Assembly (NCBI GenBank): GCA_938002605.1
Contig: CALLAF010000033.1
Span: forward strand, 1-64,000
DNA from: an uncultured Paracoccaceae bacterium
GTDB lineage: Bacteria; Pseudomonadota; Alphaproteobacteria; Rhodobacterales; Rhodobacteraceae
Direction: 5' to 3'
Length of the DNA: 64,000 nt
The notes beneath the pieces were generated by a model. It worked only from the letters and a program-made list of their open reading frames with translations, ran no database searches and was not told the origin of the DNA. Numbering within the stretch: position 1 is the stretch's first letter; each line of letters opens with the position of its first letter. A program made the translations under genes and the position numbers. Below, one piece after another: positions 27,541 through 64,000 of the stretch.

Positions 27541-27555
27541 CCATAAAACCGCAAT

Positions 27556-27608
27556 CCCCTTTTAGCAGCATATTTAACGTGGCCCGCAATCCGGTAACAA
27601 ATCGCCAC
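27556..27608 (-). promoter_or_regulatory. SAM-II riboswitch aptamer
   Basis: The minus strand reads GTGGCGATTTGTTACC, then GGATTGCGGGCCACGTTAAA, then TGCTGCTAAAAGGGG. These are the conserved blocks of the SAM-II (SAM-alpha) pseudoknot in the usual order: GTGG pairs with CCAC, the TTGC loop follows, and GCTAAAA pairs back to the first loop. SAM-II aptamers sit in front of metA, metZ and metC genes of alphaproteobacteria, where S-adenosylmethionine binding stops expression. Confidence 0.92.
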
Positions 27609-27723
27609 AAACGCTGCATAGGCGGCGCACGCCCTCAGGTCAAGAAGTGGATCGTTACACAATCGTATTCGCACCGTCATATAGCTGTAAAAATTACACA
27701 GCAAAGCTAGACCTATGTAACAT

Positions 27724-59363: not shown

Positions 59364-59481
59364 GTCTGACCCCACCTTTTCAAACCGTCCACTTTATAGA
59401 CAACTTCTGGCACGTTTTAAGCAAACCACAAGCCCAAGTGGGCAGCGCCTTGAATATGTGACAGAAAAATGACGCTAGGTC

Positions 59482-59518
59482 AGCAATGCTTATGCATTTT
59501 CTGCATAGCGGCATTGCT
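59482..59518. other. Stem-loop in the mrp/DUF1127 intergenic region
   Basis: AGCAATGC and GCATTGCT pair over eight bases, with an inner TATGCA-TGCATA stem. It lies between divergent genes mrp and the DUF1127 gene, about 100 bases before the latter. It could be a binding site, a leader structure on the mrp message, or a cruciform. Confidence 0.4.
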
Positions 59519-59528
59519 CATTCGTCCA

Positions 59529-59557
59529 TTGTGCAACCGCAGCATATTCCTCCATAA
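59529..59557 (+). promoter_or_regulatory. Candidate heat-shock-type promoter of the CcaF1/CcsR unit
   Basis: TTGTGC (59529-59534) and CCATAA (59552-59557) are 17 bases apart and lie about 60 bases before the DUF1127 start. In R. sphaeroides the same unit is transcribed by the stress sigma factors RpoHI and RpoHII. The match to their consensus is only partial, and the site is suggested by position. Confidence 0.35.
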
Positions 59558-59616: not shown

Positions 59617-59835
59617 ATGGCTTATCAAGTACAAACACAGTTCGCAGGCGCCTCATTTGGTGCGCGCTTCAACGCATTCCGCAACGACATCGCGCAGAAA
59701 TTCGCAGCTCACAAAGTATACACATCCACAGTGAACGAACTGCAAGCGCTTTCAAATCGCGAACTGGCAGACTTGGCCATCAACCGCTCTGAAATCAAAC
59801 GTATCGCCCTCGAGGCCGCATACGGCAATCAATAA
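59617..59835 (+). CDS. DUF1127 protein, CcaF1-like RNA-binding factor
   Basis: The 72-residue protein has an N-terminal segment MAYQVQTQFAGASFGARFNA and the DUF1127 core VNELQALSNRELADLAINRS with EIKRIALEAAYGNQ at the end. In R. sphaeroides the gene in the same place (CcaF1) encodes a small RNA-binding protein cotranscribed with the CcsR sRNAs; it affects their maturation and levels. Here seven hairpins with CCUCC-type loops begin six bases after its stop. The role is inferred from that synteny and the family. Confidence 0.88.
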   Translation: MAYQVQTQFAGASFGARFNAFRNDIAQKFAAHKVYTSTVNELQALSNRELADLAINRSEIKRIALEAAYGNQ

Positions 59836-59841
59836 GGATCG

Positions 59842-59873
59842 GAGCTACCGCTTCCTCCCTGAAAAGGTAGCTC
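59842..59873 (+). ncRNA. CcsR-type hairpin 1
   Basis: GAGCTACC and GGTAGCTC form a perfect eight-base stem; the 16-base loop contains TTCCTCCC, a shortened form of the CCUCCUCCC motif. Confidence 0.85.
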
Positions 59874-59878
59874 TGTAA

Positions 59879-59913
59879 GACCCACGCTCTCTCCTCCTCC
59901 CTGAGTTTGGGTC
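59879..59913 (+). ncRNA. CcsR-type hairpin 2
   Basis: GACCCA and TGGGTC form the outer stem, with CTC-GAG inside a two-by-two mismatch; the loop carries CTCCTCCTCCC, which includes a perfect CCTCCTCCC. Confidence 0.85.
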
Positions 59914-59918
59914 ACATT

Positions 59919-59960
59919 TAAGGTGGCGACATTCACCTCCTCCCGGATGTCGCCACTTTA
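59919..59960 (+). ncRNA. CcsR-type hairpin 3
   Basis: GTGGCGACAT (59923-59932) and ATGTCGCCAC (59947-59956) pair perfectly over ten bases, extended outward by a G-U pair and A-T pairs. The loop contains CCTCCTCCC. Confidence 0.88.
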
Positions 59961-59968
59961 CACCAGTT

Positions 59969-60000
59969 TCGGAACCGCCACCTCCTCCCGGCGGAACCGA
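59969..60000 (+). ncRNA. CcsR-type hairpin 4
   Basis: TCGG-CCGA and CCGCC-GGCGG stems are separated by an AA/AA internal mismatch; the loop is A followed by CCTCCTCCC. The mismatch makes this member less stable than the others. Confidence 0.85.
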
Positions 60001-60006
60001 TCATAC

Positions 60007-60044
60007 CGCAGGTCGCGCTCACCTCCTCCCGAGCAACCCCTGCG
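60007..60044 (+). ncRNA. CcsR-type hairpin 5
   Basis: CGCAGG and CCTGCG form the outer stem, GCTC and GAGC the inner stem with a small asymmetric internal loop. The loop contains CCTCCTCCC. Confidence 0.83.
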
Positions 60045-60048
60045 AGGA

Positions 60049-60086
60049 AGCGCCTCGCTCTTCTCCTCCCAGAGTAAGCAGGCGCT
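60049..60086 (+). ncRNA. CcsR-type hairpin 6
   Basis: AGCGCCT and AGGCGCT pair over seven bases, with an inner CTCT-AGAG stem. The loop has TCTCCTCCC, one base off the motif. Confidence 0.83.
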
Positions 60087-60096
60087 GATCATAGAG

Positions 60097-60130
60097 ACGG
60101 TCATGCCCACCTCCTCCCGGGCATGACCGT
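60097..60130 (+). ncRNA. CcsR-type hairpin 7, terminator form
   Basis: ACGGTCATGCCC and GGGCATGACCGT pair perfectly over 12 bases with the loop ACCTCCTCCC. It is the most stable hairpin of the series and is followed directly by a T-run, so it both carries the motif and ends the transcript. Confidence 0.9.
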
Positions 60131-60136
60131 TTTTTT
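60097..60136 (+). terminator. Terminator of the CcaF1/CcsR unit
   Basis: Hairpin 7 with its 12-base stem is followed by seven T (60130-60136). This closes the whole DUF1127-CcsR transcript. Confidence 0.93.
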
Positions 60137-60210
60137 ATGGGCCGACTTTTTTATGGGCACGACAAATTTCACAATTGCGGGACCGTTCAATTGGCCGCTA
60201 GATATGCGCC

Positions 60211-61724: not shown

Positions 61725-64000
61725 AACGGCACATCATCCGCCGCATCAGCGCTGACGATAAACCGCGCCACGACATGTTTTGTGCCCGCTTTATCAAAGG
61801 CGATCACCAGTTTATCACCCTCGATTCCGTCCACATGGCCATAGCCAAACTTTTGATGAAACACCCGATCCCCTTGGGTAAAGGCGCTTTCGGCAGTTGC
61901 ATCAATCGTGACGTTCTGTGCGCGTGGCGTGTTCGGCTTTTGCCCGCGCGCCTGCAATCGTTTCCAGCCCGGTGAATTATAGACATCCGCGGAATGGGCT
62001 TTTTCATGCAGGTCAGAAGCAACCATACCCGCCCCGCTGCTCAGTCCCGATGGCGTCAGTACATCCACGTGCTTGGGCGGCAATTCATCGACAAAACGCG
62101 ACGGCAATTGCGACTGCCATTGGCCGTAAACCCGCCGGTTCGACGCAAATGAAATTGCGCAAATCTCCTCGGCCCGTGTGATGCCCACATAGGCAAGCCG
62201 GCGCTCCTCCTCGAGCCCCTTGAGCCCGCTTTCATCCATTGAACGCTGCGAAGGGAACAACCCCTCCTCCCAGCCGGGCAAGAAAACGACCGGAAACTCA
62301 AGACCCTTAGCCGCGTGCAGCGTCATGATGCTGACTTTCTCGCCCTGCTCTTCGGTCTCATTTTCCATGATCAAGCTGACGTGTTCCAAGAACCCTTGCA
62401 GGTTATCAAAATTCTCAAGCGCTTTGACCAATTCTTTCAGGTTTTCAAGCCGACCGGGCGCTTCGGGCGTTTTGTCGTTTTGCCAATAGCCCGTGTATCC
62501 GCTTTCGTCCAAAATCATCTCGGCCAATGCGATGTGATCATATTCATAATCACCATCATCGACAGATCTCTGAAAGCTTGGGTCATCCTGTTCATCAATA
62601 ACGTCTTCGACGCCTTCATCCTGACGGTACGACGCATCGTATTCTTCTCCAAGAAGAGCCCGCGGCGAAGCTTTTGTGGCCCGAATAACTCGATTACCTG
62701 CAACGATGTCTCGCCAGCGATCTAAGTCAGCGACAAATTTCGATAGCTCTTTCAGCCCCTTACCGCCCAGCAGCCGATTTTGACAGACAATGCGCGCGCC
62801 TTCGACAAGCGACACGTTATTTTCGCGCGCGGTGCGTTGGATCGTCTGCACGGCCTTTTCGCCAAGCCCGCGTTTAGGCGTATTCACAACCCGTTCAAAC
62901 GCCAGATCATCATCGTGGCTCACGGCAAGGCGGAAATAGGCCATCGCATCCCTGATCTCCATCCGCTCGTAAAAACGCAGGCCACCAATCACGCGGTAAG
63001 GCAATCCAATCGATAAAAACCGATCCTCGAACGCGCGCATCTGGTGCGAAGCACGGACAAGAATCGCCATACCATCAAGCCCAACCGGCGCATTCCCACG
63101 CGTGCCACGCTGCATCGCTTCGATCTCTTCACCGACACAGCGCGCCTCTTCGTCGCCGTCCCAATATCCGGTCAGGCGGACCTTTTCGCCATCCTCGCGC
63201 GACGTGAACAACGTCTTACCAAGCCGGTCCCTATTGCCCGCAATCACGCCAGAGGCAGCCGCCAGAATATGCGGGGTAGAGCGGTAATTCTCCTCAAGCC
63301 GCACAACATGAGCCCCAGGGAAATCAGTTTCAAACCGCAGGATATTGCCCACTTCGGCGCCGCGCCAGCCATAGATTGACTGGTCATCATCGCCCACGCA
63401 GCAAATATTCTTATGCCCCTGCGCGAGCAAGCGCAGCCACAGATATTGGGCCACATTGGTATCTTGGTATTCGTCCACCAAGATATAGCGGAACCAGCGT
63501 TGATATTGCTGCAAAATGTCTGGGTGGGTCTGAAAGATCGTGACCATATGCAACAGGATGTCGCCAAAATCGACGGCGTTTAGGTCCGCTAGTCGCGACT
63601 GATACAACCTATAGAAGTCAATGCTGGAGAACACACTCTTTGTTCGAGGTGCGTCCTTTCTTGAAGAATAGTCCAATCCTGTTTCCATATCGATCCAGCG
63701 TTCTTCGCTTGCTGGAACCTTGTCAGGTGCCCACGCCCTATTCTTATAACTGTCTATAATGCCAGCGAGCCAGCGATCTGTAGAAGACTTCACCTTAACG
63801 CCCGTCACTACTGCAAGCTTTCTGATCAGTCTTTTTTGGTCATCAGTGTCTAGGATCGTGAAATTGGATTTCAACCCAACCAATTCCGCATGCCGCCGCA
63901 GCAATTTTACACAGACAGAATGGAAGGTACCCATCCAACGCAGCGGCGCTTGAATCCCAAATGGCTCAATCGTTAGCCGGTGTTTCATTTCCAGCGCGGC
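61721..64000 (-). CDS. UvrD/PcrA-type superfamily 1 DNA helicase, 5' end beyond the window
   Basis: The frame stays open to the right edge; the window ends within the AALEMKHRL segment after the first ATP-binding loop, so the Walker A motif is missing from the window. Remaining motifs are clear: GDDDQSIYGWRGAE (III region), VNTPKRGLGEKAV, TLHAAKGLEFPVVFLPGWEE and YVGITRAEE. It unwinds DNA in repair and replication. The C-terminal tail with VFHQKFGYGHVDGIEGDK is typical of alphaproteobacterial UvrD. Confidence 0.95.
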   Translation of the reverse strand, partial: AALEMKHRLTIEPFGIQAPLRWMGTFHSVCVKLLRRHAELVGLKSNFTILDTDDQKRLIRKLAVVTGVKVKSSTDRWLAGIIDSYKNRAWAPDKVPASEERWIDMETGLDYSSRKDAPRTKSVFSSIDFYRLYQSRLADLNAVDFGDILLHMVTIFQTHPDILQQYQRWFRYILVDEYQDTNVAQYLWLRLLAQGHKNICCVGDDDQSIYGWRGAEVGNILRFETDFPGAHVVRLEENYRSTPHILAAASGVIAGNRDRLGKTLFTSREDGEKVRLTGYWDGDEEARCVGEEIEAMQRGTRGNAPVGLDGMAILVRASHQMRAFEDRFLSIGLPYRVIGGLRFYERMEIRDAMAYFRLAVSHDDDLAFERVVNTPKRGLGEKAVQTIQRTARENNVSLVEGARIVCQNRLLGGKGLKELSKFVADLDRWRDIVAGNRVIRATKASPRALLGEEYDASYRQDEGVEDVIDEQDDPSFQRSVDDGDYEYDHIALAEMILDESGYTGYWQNDKTPEAPGRLENLKELVKALENFDNLQGFLEHVSLIMENETEEQGEKVSIMTLHAAKGLEFPVVFLPGWEEGLFPSQRSMDESGLKGLEEERRLAYVGITRAEEICAISFASNRRVYGQWQSQLPSRFVDELPPKHVDVLTPSGLSSGAGMVASDLHEKAHSADVYNSPGWKRLQARGQKPNTPRAQNVTIDATAESAFTQGDRVFHQKFGYGHVDGIEGDKLVIAFDKAGTKHVVARFIVSADAADDVPF

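Follow-up and report, generated by a model that had tools for sequence, protein, structure and literature searches.

Seven evenly spaced CCUCC-loop hairpins behind a DUF1127 gene in an uncultured Paracoccaceae bacterium

Why is a small DUF1127 gene followed by seven hairpins that present almost the same pyrimidine loop, and is seven an unusual number? The question is raised by a locus in the window analysed here, that is, the first 64,000 nucleotides of contig CALLAF010000033.1 (assembly GCA_938002605.1) of an uncultured Paracoccaceae bacterium. An earlier inspection of the letters alone, the sequence-only reading, had taken it for an expanded relative of the CcsR/CcaF1 locus of R. sphaeroides. 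By its sequence features the locus can be assigned to a known type, CIN1, which combines a DUF1127 gene with a cuckoo/CcsR-like RNA. What is described here is an evenly spaced seven-hairpin form of one genus, a separate identity for each hairpin position, the contrast with two-hairpin units, array sizes of up to 24, an upstream dyad and a set of candidate targets. The locus is probably the genus version of the alphaproteobacterial CIN1 locus, from which a stress-transcribed and processed array of anti-Shine-Dalgarno (anti-SD) hairpins would block Shine-Dalgarno (SD) sites.

Seven stem-loops occupy positions 59836-60136, directly 3′ of the 72-codon DUF1127 gene and up to a T run that ends at 60136. 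They were located with a detector that allowed at most one mismatch to CCTCCTCCC in the loop, forced this motif to be unpaired and required an enclosing stem. Over the whole 64 kb window, it returned exactly the seven array hairpins on the plus strand and a single hairpin on the minus strand. Perfect CCTCCTCCC loops begin at 59893, 59936, 59981, 60022 and 60110 (hairpins 2, 3, 4, 5 and 7), and loops with one mismatch begin at 59851 (CTTCCTCCC, hairpin 1) and 60062 (TCTCCTCCC, hairpin 6), the same division into perfect and degenerate loops that the sequence-only reading had made. The hairpins are the following:

59840..59875, plus strand: hairpin 1, loop motif CTTCCTCCC at 59851-59859, partly paired; double changes in 8 of 11 pairs
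59879..59913, plus strand: hairpin 2, loop motif CCTCCTCCC at 59893-59901; found by fold, detector and covariation
59919..59960, plus strand: hairpin 3, 16 pairs, loop motif at 59936-59944; arms conserved in the genus, short T run behind; possible end of a three-hairpin module
59969..60000, plus strand: hairpin 4, loop motif at 59981-59989; preceded by a linker with TTTCGG (21 of 23 loci)
60007..60044, plus strand: hairpin 5, loop motif at 60022-60030; found by fold, detector and covariation
60049..60086, plus strand: hairpin 6, loop motif TCTCCTCCC at 60062-60070, partly paired; the same variant in 19 of 23 loci
60094..60136, plus strand: hairpin 7, loop motif at 60110-60118, T run at 60130-60136; anti-SD hairpin and intrinsic terminator combined

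The unconstrained minimum-energy fold of 59834-60140 contains all seven hairpins, together with one additional long-range helix of four pairs (59837-59840 with 60087-60090). When the array was shuffled 300 times with its dinucleotides preserved, the detector found no hairpin in 265 cases and one hairpin in 35, against seven in the real sequence. Further, the window holds six copies of CCTCCTCCC, five of them inside the array, whereas 0.24 would be expected. The seven-hairpin array is thus not due to chance. The sixth copy, at 62263-62271, lies on the opposite strand of an open reading frame (ORF) resembling a UvrD-type helicase and is probably a chance occurrence. Mean unpaired probabilities in the unconstrained ensemble are 0.99-1.00 for the five perfect motifs, which are open, and 0.68 and 0.67 for the partly paired variant motifs at 59851-59859 and 60062-60070, so the two variant loops may be weaker or conditional sites. 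Hairpin 7, with the seven T behind it, has the composition of a Rho-independent terminator; a consensus promoter and terminator scan that accepts only loops of 3-8 nt did not report it.

Is the structure kept in relatives? Thirty loci of the genus were compared, which are the best-scoring protein matches of the 36 genus genomes in the sample (35 of them with a match), own locus included. The array alignment was built from 23 of these loci, leaving out seven with fewer than seven strict hairpins. Its consensus fold is again the same seven hairpins, and 96.5% of the pair cells contain standard pairs. Both sides have changed in 35 of the 69 pairs, a number never reached in 500 shuffles (mean 14.3), and sliding the pairing partners by 1-3 columns left 8-13 pairs with a double change; because the same alignment of related sequences had served to predict the structure, these controls do not amount to probabilities. 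This pattern indicates that the array structure is under selection. With fold, detector and covariation in agreement, the seven stem-loops first noticed by eye are confirmed.

The sequence-only reading had also stated that loops are conserved and stems are not. The loops fit this statement, as the columns of the 9-mer have mean identities of 0.96-1.00 in the 23 loci while most arms vary, and the arms of different hairpins of one locus are unlike each other (mean ungapped identity 0.32). The statement fails for two positions of the array. Compared by position, arm identity is 0.82 for hairpin 3 and 0.87 for hairpin 7, against 0.67 for hairpin 5 and 0.43-0.54 for the others. The cuckoo characteristic of non-conserved stem sequences therefore applies within a locus and largely to positions 1, 2, 4 and 6, with positions 3 and 7 conserved. 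Similarly, loops 1 and 6, described before as degenerate, do carry one mismatch each, but the variant of hairpin 6 is itself conserved: TCTCCTCCC occurs in 19 of the 23 loci, and CTTCCTCCC in hairpin 1 in 4. The loop of hairpin 6 therefore appears to be a kept variant and not a product of decay. The mean distances between neighbouring loops are 42, 44, 48, 42, 41 and 49 nt (range 38-53). Taken by position, the alignment indicates that each hairpin has an identity of its own.

As for the number of hairpins, seven were detected with at most one loop mismatch in 23 of the 30 genus loci; five loci have six and two have five. Two further genomes of the genus (G007 and G185) also have seven (loci L170 and L172). 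When three loop mismatches were allowed, each of the seven lower-count loci reached seven hairpins at about the expected places, but this rule does not discriminate, for shuffled DNA of the same loci gives 0-8 hairpins, most commonly 4. Constancy is for this reason claimed as 23 of 30 and not as 30 of 30. A survey of the DNA pattern in 390 genomes of the order, counting close loop pairs, gave exactly six pairs on the richer strand in 17 of 23 genus genomes, own genome included; its reversed-pattern control was not zero. At least one close pair was present in 384 of the 390 genomes and in 135 of 139 genera, own included, although single pairs can be chance.

Beyond the genus, hairpins were counted in 68 named loci, all from Rhodobacterales genera, which were among the matches listed in one scan with a Defluviimonas-type protein; many are from Ruegeria, and they are not an even sample. 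Six hairpins were found in 32 of these loci, eight in 10, ten in 6, four in 4, nine in 3, fourteen in 3, seven in 2, twelve in 2, none in 2, and two, three, five and eleven in one each. One of the zero counts (L077) is an artefact, as the scan started past its gene, at position 1480. The matches listed did not include R. sphaeroides. Most of the named loci consist of two-hairpin units, with about 40 nt within a unit and mostly 60-80 nt between units; a Defluviimonas metagenome-assembled genome has four such units and thus eight hairpins. A simple spacing rule classed 58 of the 68 loci as paired and placed 5 in the evenly spaced kind seen in the window, and it misplaces at least one locus (L078, Cognatiyoonia), where a 94-nt gap fits one missed hairpin in seven. 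Genomes picked for high counts gave arrays of 24 (L168, G201, minus strand), 17 (L173) and 15 (L174) hairpins. In one locus (L060, G202), a unit of about 94 nt that contains two loops is repeated in tandem almost unchanged, which resembles a recent amplification.

Seven hairpins are thus usual in the genus (23 of 30 loci) and at least eight occur in 25 of the 68 listed named loci, so the description of the locus as expanded is rejected. Two other expectations are borne out by these comparisons, namely that the arrangement would be found in relatives across Rhodobacterales and that its size would vary by species. The counts indicate a near-constant, evenly spaced seven in this genus and sizes of 2-24 in others, mostly in two-hairpin units. 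This raises the questions of whether loop number sets the strength of a translational shut-off, and whether the two-hairpin unit is general. The same data bear on the possibility that the hairpins serve the DUF1127 mRNA alone, protecting or terminating it as a stabiliser in its 3′ untranslated region (UTR) with no role in trans. Such a function would suit the strong stems and the closing terminator, but a loop 9-mer kept at 0.96-1.00 while most arms vary and the recurrence of close loop pairs throughout the order (at least one in 384 of 390 genomes, where single pairs can be chance) make it very improbable.

Is the array one RNA or several? The first three hairpins (59834-59960) match the Rfam family ar14 (RF02344) with 64.4 bits, above the gathering threshold of 58.8, so that the covariance-model search proposed by the sequence-only reading turned out positive; hairpins 5-7 (60001-60134) reach 56.8 bits and stay under this threshold. 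Within loci, the only two hairpins with an identity above 0.45 are 3 and 7 (0.51). In the 23 loci the linkers after hairpins 3 and 6 are longer. Behind hairpin 3, 22 of the 23 loci have three or more T within a 6-mer (14 of them four or more; in some, the linker TTTCGG supplies it), and behind the motif of hairpin 7 all 23 have the terminator run, a 6-mer with four T or more. Finally, a locus of a related genome (G394, L373, hairpins at 1204-1651) holds eleven hairpins, arranged as 1,2,3,4,5,6,3′,4′,5′,6′,7, which repeats the block 3-6; its first hairpin was assigned by the best single relative only. Other ar14-like matches of this genome lie on contigs 2 and 10. The ar14 match of hairpins 1-3, the conserved and similar arms of hairpins 3 and 7, the longer linker after hairpin 3 and the block repeat suggest that the array is composed of a three-hairpin, ar14-like module (1-3) and a four-hairpin module (4-7). 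A different view is that the whole seven-hairpin region is one RNA that acts as a unit and is not processed into modules. It would agree with the even loop spacing of 38-53 nt in the 23 loci (most listed named loci instead have two-hairpin units separated mostly by 60-80 nt), and with the RNase E consensus RN|WUU, which was found in no trimmed central linker of the 23 loci (TTTCGG lies at the linker edge). It is rather doubtful, as hairpins 3 and 7 look like module ends and CcsR1-4 are described, in the available part of the source, as products of RNase E cleavage (PMC7866481).

What would switch the locus on? The features in front of the array are:

59617..59835, plus strand: DUF1127 gene, CcaF1-like, 72 aa (PF06568, E 4.2e-10, 39.6 bits against a cut-off of 23.3)
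59529..59555, plus strand: candidate promoter of RpoH type (TTG, 17 nt, CCTCCAT; two mismatches to CYTATNT)
59491..59507, plus strand: putative regulator site, the dyad TATGCA-N5-TGCATA, in a conserved block (about 59477-59516) that precedes the DUF1127 gene

A short DUF1127 gene directly upstream of the array is one of the features of a CIN1 locus. The search with the DUF1127 protein gave matches in 35 of 60 genomes, namely the own genome and 34 of the 35 others of the genus, and none in the 24 genomes from elsewhere in the class. The alphaproteobacterial RpoH −10 consensus is CYTATNT. The full consensus (TTG, 17-18 nt, CYTATNT) is exact in 36 of the 68 listed named loci and in 0.1% of the shuffled upstream regions of named loci; the 30 genus loci have 1-3 mismatches to it, and the window has two. 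About 20 nt upstream of this promoter-like element lies the dyad, in a block common to the 30 aligned genus loci. The dyad stretch recurs with at most 3 mismatches over 22 specified bases in 53 of the 68 listed named loci, its antisense control always having at least 5, and in the own genome the 19-nt dyad pattern has its only perfect site here, with one further site at one mismatch. Conservation of the dyad suggests that a regulator other than RpoH also acts here. As their divergent neighbour, 29 of 30 genus loci have an Mrp-type gene, and so do 34 of the 68 listed named loci within the DNA fetched. Because this neighbour recurs, the conserved block may serve both genes.

What could the loops bind? 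All seven contain UCCUCCC, the complement of GGGAGGA. The 16S rRNA 3′ end of this organism, which we take to have the core CCUCC, has its only exact match in the own genome in a sequence unlike 16S. The loops would imitate the 16S 3′ end and pair with the SD sites of mRNAs. The sequence-only reading had equated the loops with the anti-SD but called them an mRNA mimic, which reverses the roles; its proposed probing with 30S subunits is therefore not a decisive test. Alternatively, the loops may mainly bind protein, with mRNA pairing being secondary; the array would then be a sponge for, or a feedback target of, either Hfq or the DUF1127 protein made from the same transcript. Repeated identical loops suit multivalent protein binding, and CcsRs are, in the parts of the reports available, Hfq-dependent or Hfq-interacting (PMC7866481, PMC8307010). 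This explanation is nevertheless unlikely, for the conserved 9-mer includes what is presumably the anti-SD core, CCUCC, and the related ar14 RNA NfeR1 is described, in the excerpts available, as silencing some of its targets via redundant anti-SD motifs (PMC7143759, PMC10746234).

Candidate targets were sought as GGGAGGA followed after 4-10 nt by ATG. The own genome has 42 such matches, compared with 3 for the reversed pattern. Leaving out two that are antisense to the array and one that shares its SD, 39 remained, of which 35 have an ORF of at least 60 aa. Pfam places fifteen of the 35 among the solute-binding proteins: five DctP, five SBP_bac_1, two TctC and one each of Peripla_BP_4, Peripla_BP_6 and NMT1. 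One more is an ABC permease, and several others look catabolic. Behind AAGGAG sites, solute-binding proteins make up 1 of 25 scanned ORFs (Fisher p 0.0008 against 15 of 35). This bias fits the targets predicted for NfeR1, which are mostly transport mRNAs according to the same excerpts (PMC7143759, PMC10746234).

Pairing with SD sites, the preferred reading, would work as follows. One stress promoter of RpoH type would drive both the gene for a putative RNA-binding DUF1127 protein and the seven-hairpin array 3′ of it, and the transcript would end at hairpin 7, which doubles as the terminator. RNase E, helped by the DUF1127 protein, probably cuts the 3′ part into a few multi-hairpin small RNAs, perhaps as 3+4. 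The UCCUCCC loops, five fully open and two partly so, would pair with SD sequences of the GGGAGGA type and block 30S binding on these mRNAs, many of which probably encode nutrient-uptake (solute-binding) proteins and catabolic functions. Several loops per molecule would act as redundant binding units.

Besides the lack of an RNase E consensus in the central linkers, several observations weigh against this reading. Hairpins 3 and 6 are followed by equally long linkers, which fits 3+3+1 as well as 3+4; the candidate −10 element of the window deviates at two positions from the RpoH consensus; and none of ten other genomes has an ar14 match over the Rfam threshold. Regarding the targets, the AAGGAG control drew on 37 loci, mostly first in contig order, out of 113 matches and 10 of a longer pattern. 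Among the 35 ORFs, at least two (L187 and L194) match only the C-terminal part of a Pfam family, so their ATGs are probably not real starts. GGGAGGA matches number 41-183 in six genomes without a close loop pair, compared with 42-190 in ten with such pairs; of these six, two (G205 and G363) are also without an ar14 match and four have one weak match. In the array-less genome G205, phmmer relates 8 of 31 such ORFs to solute-binding proteins, and visual inspection adds a few; in the array-bearing G078 the number is 5 of 37. A co-evolution of GGGAGGA sites with the array is not supported. Because G205 shows a similar, weaker bias, the uptake link is best read as a property of the GGGAGGA class of SD sites; it names likely targets but is no proof of an action of the array on these. 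SD classes may more generally sort by function, GGGAGGA being often and AAGGAG rarely found before genes of solute-binding proteins in the own genome, and also in an array-less relative.

A wider interpretation is put forward tentatively. The array may be a near-constant seven-site RNA of 3+4 composition, whose copy number, order and individual hairpins are all selected; together with the dyad it would form a stress switch that shuts off translation of uptake and catabolism genes, and the order would tune the dose through 2 to more than 20 loops.

Elsewhere in the window, a SAM_alpha riboswitch (RF00521, 50.4 bits) lies at 27541-27618 on the minus strand.

How does the locus compare with known systems? 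The closest is R. sphaeroides ccaF1-CcsR1-4, and the assignment to a locus of this type by the sequence-only reading holds: a DUF1127 gene, anti-SD hairpins, a terminator hairpin and a candidate RpoH-like promoter with two mismatches are all present. In both, a small DUF1127 gene (71 aa in R. sphaeroides, 72 aa in the window) is followed immediately by small RNAs, predicted ones in the window, and a terminator closes the locus; a promoter of RpoH type, a candidate one in the window, lies in front. They differ in that four RNAs are named there, whereas the window has seven evenly spaced hairpins with no visible two-hairpin units. The loop motif and hairpin number of CcsR1-4 are taken here from general background; the R. 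sphaeroides CcsRs possibly have two hairpins each, and if so, seven is not more than there. According to the available parts of the reports, ccaF1 and CcsR1-4 share one transcript that starts at an RpoHI/RpoHII promoter, ends at a Rho-independent terminator and is processed by RNase E (PMC10253847), this promoter drives both the gene and the small RNAs (PMC10253847, PMC3320616), and the association of DUF1127 with CcsR-like RNAs is frequent in alphaproteobacteria (PMC10253847). A term search of papers on Ruegeria and Paracoccus small RNAs found neither DUF1127 nor ar14.

NfeR1, as a member of ar14, shares with the window three hairpins that each carry CCUCCUCCC on variable stems, and window hairpins 1-3 score above the family threshold. 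Its promoter is sigma70-dependent in the excerpts of the two NfeR1 papers (PMC7143759, PMC10746234), which make no mention of a DUF1127 gene near it, and the window has four further hairpins. The cuckoo family (Reinkensmeier and Giegerich 2015), as far as the excerpts describe it, is likewise characterised by a conserved CCUCCUCCC loop on stems of variable sequence, and such loops are present here in five perfect and two one-mismatch copies, the latter partly paired. Contrary to the 2-4 hairpins described for cuckoo RNAs in the parts available (PMC4504443, PMC3927594), the window has seven hairpins in a row, two of which have arms that are conserved by position.
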